NCBI GenBank assembly: GCA_017431465.1
Contig: JAFRLA010000021.1
Location: 1 to 45,984, forward strand
From: Candidatus Saccharimonadota bacterium
GTDB taxonomy: Bacteria; Patescibacteriota; Saccharimonadia; Saccharimonadales; Saccharimonadaceae
Length of the DNA: 45,984 bases
Direction: 5' to 3'
Each line of letters opens with the position of its first letter. Position 1 is the first letter of the stretch. The translations under genes and the position numbers were made by a program. Positions 31,506 to 36,375 of this stretch are shown in pieces. A model generated the notes under the pieces. The model had not been told where the DNA came from, did not search any database, and was given only the letters and a program-made list of their open reading frames with translations.

Positions 31506-31534
31506 TTGACAAATTAGCAAAAGTGTGATACAAT
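31506..31534 (+). promoter_or_regulatory. Full promoter of the 31616 gene
   Basis: TTGACA (31506-31511), 17-bp spacer and TACAAT (31529-31534) with TG one base before. The block from -35 to just past -10 closely resembles the promoter at 32573-32601 (shared TTAGCAAA and AGTGTG). Confidence 0.8.
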
Positions 31535-31540
31535 GGAACA

Positions 31541-31560
31541 TACAATCGTATGGAGGAGCG
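31541..31560 (+). repeat. 5' arm of the UTR-UTR inverted repeat around the 31616 gene
   Basis: TACAATCGTATGGAGGAGCG. Its first 11 nt are perfectly complementary to 32428-32438 after the gene, and pairing continues to 32417 with a 2-nt bulge and two mismatches. Confidence 0.85.
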
Positions 31561-31575
31561 TGCAGCGCTCTTTTT
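31556..31575 (+). terminator. Attenuator-like hairpin in the 31616 leader
   Basis: GAGCG-tgcag-CGCTC followed by T5G, about 20 nt into the transcript and 40 nt before the start codon. The segment GGAGCG...TTTTTGTAAC is shared with the leader of the 5451 gene. Confidence 0.65.
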
Positions 31576-31602
31576 GTAACTATTAGTACTTTAAAAAACA
31601 AC

Positions 31603-31613
31603 AGGAGGTGATC
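31603..31613 (+). promoter_or_regulatory. Extended Shine-Dalgarno with inverted copy after the stop codon
   Basis: AGGAGGTGATC, three bases before ATG 31616, complements 11 nt of the bacterial 16S rRNA 3' tail. The exact reverse complement GATCACCTCCT is at 32397-32407, beginning inside the gene's own stop codon. Confidence 0.9.
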
Positions 31614-31615
31614 TT

Positions 31616-32398
31616 ATGAAGAAAAGATCAAGCGTCTTTGCCGACGCCACTCTCAATGTAACCGGCTTGAATAATCTAAGGGCCGGCAGTGTCCGTGAAG
31701 CAAATGCTGACGAACTCGGTCCGGATGAGCTCGTCAGCGTTGACGAGATGGAAGACGAGTTTGTCGACGTTGGCGACACGGAAAGCGAAGAGTCTGTTAG
31801 TACAGACAGCGCCGAAGATTCTAAGGCAGATGATACCGCAGACAAGATTGCAGACGAGGTAGTTGCTGAAGTCCAGGCTGAGACAGCCGAGAGCGTGCAG
31901 AACCTCGAGAAAGGCAATTCGCAACCTGTCAAAAAACAGGAGGAGAAAGGGGGCGGTACTATGAGAAAGTACCCGATCTCATTTTATGATAACATCCGCG
32001 ATCAGGCCTATGCCGCGGTCAACGATGGGAAACTGTCCGAAGAGTTAGAGGGATTTGTTATGGACATCATCCGTAGCTATCCCAAGGTCCGCGCTCAGGC
32101 TGCCGACTGGATTGATGCCTATGAGGCAGAAAACACAGTTCCGGATTATGGCTGGCGCTACAAGGCCAAAGGTATACTCGACGGAGCAACGTTCGACTCT
32201 AAGGACGAGGCTGAGAAAGAGGCTAAAGACTTCATCGGCCTCGGACATACATTCGAGGAGCTGTTCGTTGCGACTCCGTTCTACAAGAACGCGGATGGCG
32301 GCTTTGGTGAGCCTATCCCTGAGGATTCTCGTCACTGGGAGCTCATTATGGACCAGATAGAGTTAGCAAGCGGTCAACAGAGTGCCAGTGTTGACTGA
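31616..32398 (+). CDS. Uncharacterised acidic protein flanked by complementary UTRs
   Basis: 260 residues, no recognised family. Residues 1-~35 are polar, ~35-100 a strongly acidic, Ser/Glu/Asp-rich, Val/Ala-spaced stretch that looks disordered, ~100-115 Lys/Gly-rich. The rest (from MRKYPISFYDNIRDQAY) is a folded-looking domain with helices (GFVMDIIRSYPKVRAQAADWIDAYE) and aromatic residues. A second ATG (31961, Met116) follows an internal purine-rich AGGAGG, so the C-terminal domain might also be made alone. No signal peptide. Codon use (CTG, CAG, GAG) departs from housekeeping neighbours. The leader, long Shine-Dalgarno and its matched 3' copy make expression control the most striking feature. 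Confidence 0.78.
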   Translation: MKKRSSVFADATLNVTGLNNLRAGSVREANADELGPDELVSVDEMEDEFVDVGDTESEESVSTDSAEDSKADDTADKIADEVVAEVQAETAESVQNLEKGNSQPVKKQEEKGGGTMRKYPISFYDNIRDQAYAAVNDGKLSEELEGFVMDIIRSYPKVRAQAADWIDAYEAENTVPDYGWRYKAKGILDGATFDSKDEAEKEAKDFIGLGHTFEELFVATPFYKNADGGFGEPIPEDSRHWELIMDQIELASGQQSASVD

Positions 32399-32407
32399 TC
32401 ACCTCCT
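32397..32407 (+). repeat. Anti-Shine-Dalgarno-like copy at the stop codon
   Basis: GATCACCTCCT equals the conserved 3' tail of 16S rRNA and is the perfect complement of this gene's own Shine-Dalgarno (31603-31613). Confidence 0.9.
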
Positions 32408-32416
32408 AGCGGGAGT

Positions 32417-32438
32417 CGCTCCCGCATATACGATTGTA
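32417..32438 (+). repeat. 3' arm of the UTR-UTR inverted repeat
   Basis: Complementary to 31541-31560 (11 perfect pairs, then 8 of 10 after a small bulge). Its 5' part also belongs to a local hairpin GCGGGAG-tc...GCTCCCGC (32409-32425), so local and long-range pairings exclude one another. Confidence 0.85.
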
Positions 32439-32463
32439 CCCCGGGCTTCATGCCCGGGGTTTT
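32439..32463 (+). terminator. Terminator of the 31616 gene
   Basis: CCCCGGGC-ttcat-GCCCGGGG followed by T4; an 8-bp GC stem. Confidence 0.9.
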
Positions 32464-32601: not shown

Positions 32602-32807
32602 GGAATTAGTCTATGCAATTGGGAGGAAATAGCCTAATTCCGCATCAGACGACCATTAAAATCAGATCATCTCAGGTACAATTTGTACCTGATTTTGTGT
32701 ATTGCGCTTTTATCTTTTTTCTCAGGGAAGGCGTAGTGCACCTTCTCTGTTTTATATATGAAACTATAGTTTTCCGATAGATAAAACACAAACGAGGAGG
32801 TGTTACT
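32602..32807 (+). promoter_or_regulatory. ~200-nt structured leader of the 32808 operon
   Basis: The gap between 32399 and 32807 holds the upstream terminator, the promoter and this leader. The leader has three inverted repeats: GGAATTAG/CTAATTCC (32602-32641) with an internal GGGAGGAAAT, TCAGGTAC/GTACCTGA followed by TTTT (32672-32697), and CAGGGAAGG/CCTTCTCTG followed by TTTT (32723-32754). The last two are terminator-shaped. An ORF from ATG 32613 to 32780 runs through them but is probably fortuitous. A Shine-Dalgarno GAGGAGGTG ends the leader. Confidence 0.6.
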
Positions 32808-33407
32808 ATGGAAATGACAGGAATGAACTTAGCGTCGATGCTCGGGATTATGCTGGCTTCGACCATTGCATTTATCCTGATAGCAACTCCGCTATCAAAG
32901 AGAACCGTTGGTCGGGATCTTTATCCGGCAACGCAGATTGCTTGGCTGATTGGCGCGCTGGTTATACAGTTCGTCATTGTTAAGTGGGCTTTCCACCCCT
33001 TAAGTTATATCATCTTTATAGGTGTTATTTGCTTTATGGAGTGGCTCACTATCAGGATCCCGGAACGCCGAAAAGCAGAAGAAATCGAGCCGCCTTTAAT
33101 GAGGTTTTTGGCTTGGTTTTTCTTTAGTTTGGGCCCGATAGTCAGTATGGCTATCGCCGCCGTAGCACAAAAAGGAGCTTGGGCGTTCGAAGGCAAAACA
33201 ATCATTTTGTACTGCCTTGCCCCGGTCGCTGTTCTTGGAATTGGCCTGATCAGAGTCGCAATTTGCGGCGATGTCTCAGAGGCCGAAGACGAGGATGACG
33301 AAGAAGAAACTGTTGACGAGCTCGATATCGAAGAAATCGATGAGGCTGACCTCGAAGATTCTGAAGAAATCGACCTGAAAATTGACGGCGCCGAGAGCGT
33401 CGCCTGA
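32808..33407 (+). CDS. Multi-pass membrane protein with acidic tail, function unknown
   Basis: 199 residues. Four or five hydrophobic segments (~7-28, 42-62, 67-84, 103-122, 130-150) are followed by a ~45-residue tail almost wholly Asp/Glu with Ile/Leu. No known family. It is the first gene of an SD-led operon; a GAAAGGAGTGATG block links it to the next gene 17 nt later. The acidic tail is probably cytoplasmic and could bind a basic partner. Confidence 0.75.
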   Translation: MEMTGMNLASMLGIMLASTIAFILIATPLSKRTVGRDLYPATQIAWLIGALVIQFVIVKWAFHPLSYIIFIGVICFMEWLTIRIPERRKAEEIEPPLMRFLAWFFFSLGPIVSMAIAAVAQKGAWAFEGKTIILYCLAPVAVLGIGLIRVAICGDVSEAEDEDDEEETVDELDIEEIDEADLEDSEEIDLKIDGAESVA

Positions 33408-33424: not shown

Positions 33425-34921
33425 ATGAAAAAGTACATGAGAGTCATCGCAGCAAGCCTCTCGGTTGTAGCCGTAATTGGTTTGCTGACTACCCTCTACT
33501 TCGTATTGCCCGGGGGCAGTACGGGGGCAGAGGCTGATACGGTAGCGGCGTCTGGAGATGCTGCTACGGCTGATACTGAAGAAGCGGTAGCCAAAGCCGC
33601 AGCGAAGGTCCAGGAGTTTGAAGACTTCCATACAAAAGGAAGAATCCAGACCGAGGCCATTGCTGGTTGGCTCGACAAGTACGGGGTTCCGTACAAGAAG
33701 AACGCTAACGGTAAAATTATCGTCGACACGACCAGAACGCTGGGGACTTTGTTCCCGGCTAACGACGAGTCGAGGACTAATTCAGCTAAGAAGGCCGGAC
33801 TCTCGAATCATGCCATTTCGGATGCTCCGGAGTATGTCTTTGACAGCTTGACCGAAAAGGATGTCAAGAAAATCCTTGAGGCCGAGAAGAAAGGCATCGG
33901 TACTAAGGTCGATCTTTCAAAGAAGAAGATCAAGGCCTTAAAGAAAGAAGATGCTCAGACAATGATTGAGAATATCATTGTCGGGCTCGCGCATACTGAG
34001 CAGATCTCCGGTATGTTCTATGGAGATTCCAAGACCGTTTATCAGTGTTCATCAGCGGTTAAATACCTGATTGACGAGACTGACAAAGCTTGGAAAACAA
34101 AGGACGACGCTGGCGAGATTATCGGTATTAACCGTTGGCTCGAGTATGACGAGACCGAGAAAAAGTGGTATGCGAATGAAGATTGGGTAGCGAACATCAT
34201 CGCCGTAGTTAATCAGATTGTAGATGGTTGCGAGCCTGAAGTTCGAGTAATCCACGCGGATTACAACTGGGGCTTAAAACGTAACGATCAGATTCAGCTG
34301 CGTCGCTGCTATCTCTCGACTGAGCCGGATAATTTAACGGCAATTGTTTATGTACATCGCTTCAAAGACGGCGAGATCATGGAACAGCCGGCAACGAACG
34401 TTCGCGATCGTCGCCCGGAAATTCCGTCGAATCCGAAGCCACCAAAGAAGACGAGTAAACCGGATCCGAATCCGACCCCGACTCCGGGGTACGACCCGAC
34501 TCCGGGTAAGCATGAGAAGCCGGATCCGAAGCCTGGCACTAAGGATAAACCGAAGCCGACTCCAACGATTAAACCGAAGGACCCGGACGCAAGGCCGACC
34601 GAACGGCCGAGGGACGACAAGGGACCGGGCGAACCGGAACCGACTCCGAAAGTTCCAAAAAGCGATAGCGAAGAGGTTGACGAGAGTCAGCATCAGCCTA
34701 TCGCCGACCAGCAGACTGGTGGCACTTCCACTCCGCGAGAATCAATACAGAACGATCCGTCAGCGACTACTTCTCCTGGCGGACAGATTGTAACTGACCC
34801 ACACGGGGATGGATGGCGCATTGAGAACGATCGAGCCTCGACCGATCCGATCGAGACGAGGCCGTCTGACACTGGTGGCAGAGAAGGTAGCAATAATGGC
34901 GCAATATCTGCGCCAGACTAA
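33425..34921 (+). CDS. Anchored or secreted protein with proline-rich C-terminal half
   Basis: 498 residues. Signal/anchor ~5-30 (VIAASLSVVAVIGLLTTLYFVLPGG); a folded region ~60-320 with Cys pairs (VYQCSSAV, DGCEPEV, LRRCYLST); then ~335-430 Pro/Lys/Asp-rich repeats (PNPTPTPGYDPTPGKHEKPDPKPG) like wall-spanning stalks; a polar end. No LPxTG. The folded part is not a family I know. It follows the membrane gene with a good Shine-Dalgarno (AAAGGAGTGAT) and probably works with it at the surface. Confidence 0.75.
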   Translation: MKKYMRVIAASLSVVAVIGLLTTLYFVLPGGSTGAEADTVAASGDAATADTEEAVAKAAAKVQEFEDFHTKGRIQTEAIAGWLDKYGVPYKKNANGKIIVDTTRTLGTLFPANDESRTNSAKKAGLSNHAISDAPEYVFDSLTEKDVKKILEAEKKGIGTKVDLSKKKIKALKKEDAQTMIENIIVGLAHTEQISGMFYGDSKTVYQCSSAVKYLIDETDKAWKTKDDAGEIIGINRWLEYDETEKKWYANEDWVANIIAVVNQIVDGCEPEVRVIHADYNWGLKRNDQIQLRRCYLSTEPDNLTAIVYVHRFKDGEIMEQPATNVRDRRPEIPSNPKPPKKTSKPDPNPTPTPGYDPTPGKHEKPDPKPGTKDKPKPTPTIKPKDPDARPTERPRDDKGPGEPEPTPKVPKSDSEEVDESQHQPIADQQTGGTSTPRESIQNDPSATTSPGGQIVTDPHGDGWRIENDRASTDPIETRPSDTGGREGSNNGAISAPD

Positions 34922-34970: not shown

Positions 34971-35130
34971 TCCAAGAAATCGGGAATTGTAGTTGAGATG
35001 ATCTGGTTTTGTGGCCCAGACGAAAATTAAAAATTCGGCTAGCAAAAACCTAAATGAGGAAGCCTTTTTGTATGAAAAGACGCCTCGAATATATTATCAA
35101 AGCAGATTAATTTATAATAAGGAGTTTATT

Positions 35131-36375
35131 ATGAAGAAATTTAACGCTGTTCCGATGGCTGCCGCTGTTGCAGTTCTCGGTACCACTCTCGCCACTGCTG
35201 CGAACGTCGTAGCTTATGGCCCAGTAGATCGCATGGTCTACAAATATGAAGACACCACTACTCCAGGTACTAAGGCTTACAAAGCTTTAGTCGAAGAGAA
35301 GAAAATTATCTTCAACTCTATCACCAACAACCCAGATGGTGACGAGCGTAACTTCGTTTCCGCTCGCGCTGAAGGCGACACTGGCCTTTGGAAAGCAAAC
35401 GAAATTACTGTCGAAGAGGGTAAAACCTACGACATCAGCTTGTACATCCACAACAACAGCCCACTTGGGACTGCTGCAACTGCTAAAGATGTTCACGCCA
35501 CCTTCGCTCTTGACCAGGGTTATGGTAAAGAGCTTAACGTAGAAGGTTACATTGACGCTACTAACGCTACTCCGGCTCAGTACTGGGACTACGTTACTTT
35601 CAAGAGCGCCAATGGCCAGAACTTCTACCTTGACTACGTTGAAGGTTCTGCAACTGAGACCTACAACGAAGTTGACGCAAACGGTAACCCGACTAAGAAA
35701 GGGCTTGTCAAATCTATTTCTGACAAGGTCATCACTAAGAGCGGTGTTTCCGTCGGCGATATGCCAGGTTGCTATGCTTACTCTAAGTATGTAACCATCA
35801 AAGTCAAACCAGTCTTCACCGACGCCAACTTCTCCGTTGAGAAAGTTGTTCGCAAACACGGTGATAAAACCTGGTCTGAATCTGTGAATGCTAAGGTCGG
35901 CGACAAAGTTGACTACCGCATCCACTACAAGAACACTACCGAAGGCAAGACCGAGAACGTTATGTTCAAAGATGTTCTTCCTTCCAACATGAAGATCGTT
36001 TCCGAGGTTAAACTTGTTAACGGTACTAACCCTAACGGTCTTGTTGAGCCAGGCGATATCGTCAAAGACGGTATCAACATCGGTGGTTATGACGTCAACG
36101 GTGACGCATGGATTTACTTCACCGCTGAAGTTATCGACAACAACCTGATCTGTGGTAAAAACACTCTCCGCAACTGGGGTCAGATCGGTGTGGGTAAAAT
36201 TACCCTCCAAGACTCCGCTGATGTTGTGGTCCAGAAGAGTTGTACCAAAGACGAAAAGACCCCTTCGGCTTTGCCGAAAACCGGTCCTGAAGCTATCGTT
36301 GCTGGTGTCTTTGGCGCAGGCTCGATCGTAGCCGCTGCTGGTTACTACATTGCTAGCCGTAAACAACTTCGCTAA
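35131..36375 (+). CDS. LPKTG-anchored surface protein
   Basis: 414 residues. Signal peptide ~1-25 (NAVPMAAAVAVLGTTLATAANVVA); N-terminal beta domain ~30-235; a DUF11-like domain ~235-370 (VVRKHGDKTWSESVNAKVGDKVDYRIHYKNTTEGK...FKDVLPSNMKIV); a sorting signal LPKTGPEA (~378), a hydrophobic stretch and a basic end (ASRKQLR). This is a Gram-positive-type sortase substrate. Codon use is very uniform, as in abundant proteins. ATG 35131 follows TAAGGAG; a TATAAT at 35113-35118 would place the mRNA start at or after the Shine-Dalgarno, so a further upstream promoter is likely in use too. Confidence 0.9.
   Translation: MKKFNAVPMAAAVAVLGTTLATAANVVAYGPVDRMVYKYEDTTTPGTKAYKALVEEKKIIFNSITNNPDGDERNFVSARAEGDTGLWKANEITVEEGKTYDISLYIHNNSPLGTAATAKDVHATFALDQGYGKELNVEGYIDATNATPAQYWDYVTFKSANGQNFYLDYVEGSATETYNEVDANGNPTKKGLVKSISDKVITKSGVSVGDMPGCYAYSKYVTIKVKPVFTDANFSVEKVVRKHGDKTWSESVNAKVGDKVDYRIHYKNTTEGKTENVMFKDVLPSNMKIVSEVKLVNGTNPNGLVEPGDIVKDGINIGGYDVNGDAWIYFTAEVIDNNLICGKNTLRNWGQIGVGKITLQDSADVVVQKSCTKDEKTPSALPKTGPEAIVAGVFGAGSIVAAAGYYIASRKQLR

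Follow-up and report, generated by a model that had tools for sequence, protein, structure and literature searches.

The window, by which we mean the whole stretch of 45,984 nucleotides analysed here, is included as one contig in a 656-kb assembly; the named relatives closest to it are MAGs of Candidatus Saccharibacteria from the ruminant gut. At 31616 it carries a gene for an acidic protein, with a promoter in front and an intrinsic terminator behind, and the untranslated regions of its predicted transcript contain two nested pairs of complementary segments, which we call the outer and the inner arms:

31506-31534 (+): promoter, with the -35 box TTGACA at 31506-31511 and the extended -10 box TACAAT at 31529-31534 (11/12 matches; TG precedes the -10 box)
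31541-31552 (+): outer 5' arm, at the predicted mRNA 5' end, paired in the MFE fold
31553-31573 (+): 5' hairpin adjoining the outer helix in the MFE fold
31576-31586 (+): GTAACT-type 5'UTR element (GTARYT is present in 28/56 5'UTRs)
31603-31613 (+): inner 5' arm, the ribosome binding site (RBS) AGGAGGTGATC, matching 32397-32407 at 11/11 positions and paired in the MFE fold
31616-32398 (+): gene for a 260-aa acidic protein of a family without assignment, apparently genus-restricted
32397-32407 (+): inner 3' arm GATCACCTCCT, an anti-SD that begins within the stop codon; its helix covaries in 15 loci
32409-32425 (+): local 3'UTR hairpin GCGGGAG/CTCCCGC, formed in the MFE fold
32427-32438 (+): outer 3' arm, abutting the terminator, assigned from complementarity and fold
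32438-32463 (+): intrinsic terminator of the transcript, with a 9-bp stem of which 8 pairs are G-C

Transcription usually starts 7 nt past the -10 box; the mRNA is therefore predicted to begin at about 31541, which would make the outer 5' arm its very terminus. Orthologous loci have a promoter of the same type. The outer arms, 31541-31551 (TACAATCGTAT) and 32428-32438 (ATACGATTGTA), are complementary at 11/11 positions, and the inner helix spans the entire ribosome binding site, with its 3' strand starting inside the stop codon TGA (32396-32398). Both of the nested 11-nt complements that the original prediction had placed at the two gene ends are thus present. The outer pairing had also been thought to continue with 8 of the next 10 positions; the core of 11 pairs stands, but this extension competes with the hairpins at 31553-31573 and 32409-32425, which the MFE fold prefers. 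Folding of the full transcript (923 nt) against shuffled controls, proposed as a check at the outset, bore out both helices: the MFE structure contains the complete outer helix (31541-31552/32427-32438, 12 bp) and the inner helix along with the two hairpins, at a z-score of -10.6 (20 shuffles) or -7.1 (10 shuffles), compared with -3.6 for the coding sequence alone. As main helices and local hairpins coexist in the predicted fold, the mutually exclusive states originally envisaged find no support in it. The same applies to a leader attenuator, which we rejected as a common feature, since a hairpin followed by a T-run was not general among the orthologous 5'UTRs read by eye. Between 31000 and 33500, no Rfam match exceeded the gathering score.

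The protein belongs to no family in Pfam or NCBIfam, and the C-terminal domain of its AlphaFold model found no significant match in the PDB or BFVD. While a first scan of genome contigs with the 260-aa protein as query yielded no match, protein searches recovered two clear homologues in the genus, with 33% and 27% identity; orthologues range from 137 to 497 aa in length. The family samples searched outside the genus contained no member of the protein family and no copy of the following transcript's leader RNA; the one exception is a weak match to a single protein from another genus (E = 9e-4). Codon adaptation of the gene is average (rank 249/554, against a very small reference set of EF-G and one rpsL-like match) and therefore, as far as this weak reference set goes, gives no sign of high expression. 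In six orthologues (L011, L012, L052, L056, L061 and L103), an in-frame ATG with a possible internal SD lies at the border of the C-terminal domain, corresponding to 31940-31965; in the window, the SD-like AGGAGGAG is located further upstream of the ATG at 31961 than in these six. A shorter second product from the internal ATG is possible.

The leader of the next transcript (32602-32760, +) contains the element GACCATTAAMAnCGAATCATCYCAG with flanking hairpins, which recurs at about 38 loci within the genus, never more than once in a genome, is absent from the other genera sampled and has no Rfam match. We regard it as a candidate for a new cis-regulatory RNA in front of a membrane-protein gene; RNAalifold gave no consensus for the leader alignment, which is probably poor. 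Later in the leader (32700-32808; about 5690-5775 in L012), a terminator-like hairpin, AGGAGGCGTAGTGCACCTCCTGTTTTT in L012, carries CACCTCCT, which could alternatively pair with the downstream ribosome binding site AGGAGGTGCA, suggesting a second SD-sequestering switch. The GTARYT(T)TAA element of 28/56 5'UTRs of the upstream gene is mostly situated past the 5' hairpin or close to the 5' end. It is similar to the CATTAAMA core of this leader, and a binding site common to both is conceivable. The secreted or surface protein genes further downstream (33425-34921 and 35011-36375) are unusually structured, with coding-sequence z-scores of about -7 to -8, whereas most other genes tested fall between about -4 and +1; the second of them, encoding an LPxTG-like surface protein, ranks 5/554 in codon adaptation by the reference of EF-G and one rpsL-like match.

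The inner 3' arm had been equated with the 3' tail of 16S rRNA. This holds for the usual textbook tail, GGATCACCTCCTTT. The assembly contains no 16S rRNA, and the only 16S found in the genus, in one of ten genomes searched (L253, G181:C4:51268-52802), ends in GGATTACCTCCTTT, with one mismatch, so that identity of the arm with the tail of the host's own 16S is unconfirmed.

How unusual the nested complements are within this genome was assessed over 539 genes (~94% of the genome), among which the 31616 gene has the highest nested-complementarity score, 22, followed by a gene with 19; the maximum among 1614 swapped UTR pairs was 21. Taken by itself, this single-genome score is only moderately significant, and the original assertion that such an arrangement is very unlikely by chance becomes secure through the homologous loci described below. 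The remaining genes score like swapped pairs; the feature is therefore specific to the 31616 gene, and panhandles as a genome-wide device are ruled out here. Neither arm recurs elsewhere, the outer having no second occurrence in the ~94% of the genome read and the inner none across the whole assembly.

Covariation of the arms in homologous loci, the comparison on which the original prediction was to be judged, was found: in related ruminant-gut Saccharibacteria, the syntenic gene has arms that differ between species and still match each other. Both clear homologues have matched outer arms of different sequence, TACACTTTT/AAAAGTGTA and TACTTAGTCG/CGACTAAGTA, and retain the anti-SD at the stop codon. 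A fourth locus, reached via the conserved leader RNA of the next transcript, combines ACAATACCG/CGGTATTGT with AGGAGGG/CCCTCCT, and a neighbouring marker gene used as lead gave 40 more loci. Across 20 curated loci, the longest perfect match between the two UTRs averaged 10.25 for own and 7.5 for swapped partners (p < 1e-5), the outer and inner regions each being significant on their own. To avoid selection on the feature itself, we assembled a set of 33 non-redundant genes for which the criteria were the downstream leader RNA, a promoter and an SD preceding the gene; the set includes most of the 20 curated loci. Here, the longest perfect match was 9.36 for own against 7.13 for swapped pairs, a difference reached in 0/200,000 permutations; at least 9 perfect pairs occurred in 25 of the 33 loci, compared with 11.5% of swaps. 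The result was replicated in 23 further, previously unseen loci obtained through the leader pattern (8.09 versus 6.76; again 0/200,000). A perfect helix of at least 9 pairs is absent from about a quarter of the 33 loci and from most of the replication set. The loci all belong to a single genus and are hence related; the swaps control for composition and not fully for phylogeny.

Of the best helices formed by own UTRs, 32% have their 5' arm at the predicted start of the transcript (swaps, 10%), and 41% have their 3' arm no more than 12 nt from the stop codon (swaps, 18%). In many loci the 3' arm starts in or near the stop codon, as in TAAACTACAT, TGATCAGCTAA and GATCACCTCCT, while in one group, the CAATACC clade, the outer 3' arm lies 60-120 nt past it. 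Across the 33 transcripts, 18.7 UTR-UTR pairs are expected from folding when the 3'UTR is the gene's own, as opposed to 8.9 after swapping (Wilcoxon P = 5e-9). RNAduplex energies were a weak discriminator for single loci, since pairing of the GC-rich terminator swamps them.

Compensatory change was counted in three helices. Since the helix itself guided the choice and alignment of the rows, shuffling and sliding serve as the appropriate controls. In the RBS/stop helix (15 loci), 20 cells were changed on both sides, against 9.4 after shuffling (0/500), with a covariation of 0.204 against 0.101. In the CAATACC clade (7 loci), the outer helix had 9 double changes against 3.7 (0/500). In a third class of 15 loci, the partner of the 5' element (GTAGTTTA or GTAACTTA) is located at the stop codon or close to it and reads TAAACTAC or TAAGTTAC; 91% of cells are paired, with 23 double changes against 7.5 (0/500), and sliding the partner by one column lowers pairing to 25-44%. 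One class of loci thereby pairs a GTARYT-type 5' element with the stop-codon region. These comparisons show that, throughout the genus, compensatory changes preserve 5'UTR/3'UTR complementarity, both at the mRNA 5' end and, in many cases, at the stop codon. Because this covariation coincides with a predicted fold that contains both helices, a conserved mRNA panhandle at genes of the 31616 type is well supported.

Could the arms owe their complementarity to something other than RNA pairing? Within the window's genome, where 22 barely exceeds the best of 1614 swapped scores, coincidence would be an obvious suspect, but it is rejected by two independent locus sets at 0/200,000 each and again by the compensatory-change counts of all three helices, and we regard it as practically negligible. 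The original prediction had also considered a DNA-level feature, with the inverted repeats as ends of a mobile gene cassette or as recombination sites. Such an origin would account for repeats flanking a gene whose protein diverges fast, and it is in line with G-U and A-C mismatches being equally common in the helices (18 versus 16), a count that is uninformative as independent proof of the RNA strand. Against it, the gene keeps a fixed position across the genus, followed by the leader RNA and with the marker gene in its vicinity, its arms vary between orthologues as a fixed terminal repeat would not, and no further copy of them exists (outer arm, 94% of the genome; inner arm, whole assembly). 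Since the arms furthermore coincide with transcription start, ribosome binding site, stop codon and terminator, we read the feature at the RNA level and consider a cassette highly improbable.

The co-change of arm sequences between species suggests that the message is looped and controls its own translation or stability. In the mechanism we propose, the 5'-terminal nucleotides would pair with the segment adjoining the terminator on its upstream side, while the ribosome binding site would pair with the sequence that begins in the stop codon. A completed, ribosome-free mRNA would then be closed, its 5' end shielded from 5'-end-dependent decay and initiation hindered wherever the RBS is paired; translation would proceed on nascent transcripts or on mRNAs that have been opened. 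Candidate openers are transcription-coupled translation of the nascent RNA, the arrival of a ribosome at the stop codon, trimming of the 3' end and a factor acting in trans. The closed loop hiding its RBS, as originally proposed, is borne out by covariation as far as the loop is concerned; masking of the RBS by a stop-codon arm is supported for the window's gene and some 15 further loci but is not universal. Several classes pair the 5'UTR elsewhere, upstream of the RBS, without masking it, and masking therefore cannot be the whole function. Most likely, the panhandle both shields the 5' end and gates initiation, a function we infer because the experimentally studied icaR, AapA3 and hok mRNAs follow the same logic. 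We thus consider it probable that the panhandle is a cis-acting gate on the expression of a genus-specific protein.

Two narrower functions deserve consideration. The panhandle might serve mRNA stability only, with 5'-terminal pairing blocking 5'-end-dependent decay and the pairing of the RBS being incidental, a reading compatible with the many loci whose 5' arm sits at the predicted start of the transcript and with those that lack RBS pairing. The RBS/stop helix, however, covaries by itself, including flanks beyond the SD core, and the average codon adaptation, by its weak reference set, gives no hint that a very abundant message is needed; we rejected high expression as the cause of a very stable message on the same ground (EF-G and one rpsL-like match as reference). 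A role in stability alone therefore seems rather unlikely to us. Alternatively, initiation might be coupled to termination: with the stop codon beside or inside the 5'-3' helix, a terminating ribosome would mechanically reopen the start region and recycle onto the same mRNA. The many 3' arms that start in or near the stop codon point in this direction, but arm position is all that speaks for it, and the outer 3' arm of the CAATACC clade lies well beyond the stop codon. We see such coupling as an outside possibility which, if true, would link initiation and termination within one cistron by RNA pairing alone and constitute a base-paired counterpart of the eukaryotic closed loop. For the gate that we favour, the dozens of species in which the arms of a single orthologous gene have covaried provide ready-made natural compensatory mutants with which end-to-end loop control of bacterial translation or decay can be tested. 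To our knowledge, only few bacterial mRNAs with paired ends have been described, chiefly single genes or toxin systems, and gene regulation in the Candidate Phyla Radiation has been little studied.

The closest parallel is icaR of Staphylococcus aureus, in which pairing of the 3'UTR with the SD blocks initiation, as established by toeprinting and compensatory mutation; its UCCCCUG motif lies 260 nt past the stop codon, and RNase III cleavage is involved (PMC3868564). As in icaR, a protein-coding, non-toxin mRNA has a 3'UTR that is complementary to its own 5'UTR and SD region beyond chance, the pairing in the RNA being predicted by folding. Unlike in icaR, the arms occupy the mRNA 5' end, the stop codon and the stretch preceding the terminator, and they co-change between species. 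In the AapA/IsoA systems of Helicobacter pylori, a 5'-3' long-distance interaction and an anti-SD render the full-length mRNA translationally inert until 3' trimming activates it; this fold is reportedly conserved among related loci, and the mRNA encodes a small toxin countered by an antisense antitoxin RNA (PMC6733600). The full-length hok mRNA of plasmid R1 is likewise inert, with a downstream anti-SD sequestering the SD and 3'-end processing activating it (PMC6733600). The 31616-type genes share long-distance 5'-3' pairing with an anti-SD with the former and, as predicted in the window, an SD paired to a downstream anti-SD with the latter; SD-sequestering 5'-3' pairing of this kind is found in about 16 loci, though not in all classes. 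In contrast to both toxin systems, the proteins are large (137-497 aa), the window encoding an acidic protein of 260 aa in place of a small hydrophobic toxin, and no antisense RNA gene was found in the region scanned, from the stop codon to the leader. A promoter-like site at 32503-32475 (-), considered as the source of an antisense partner, is not conserved, minus-strand promoters in this region occurring in 3/56 loci against 3.1 expected; we therefore rejected a type I toxin mRNA. The pairing principle is thus already known from a handful of mRNAs, while what appears to be new, as far as the open-access literature goes, is the arrangement of the arms, the part played by the stop codon and the covariation across a single bacterial genus.
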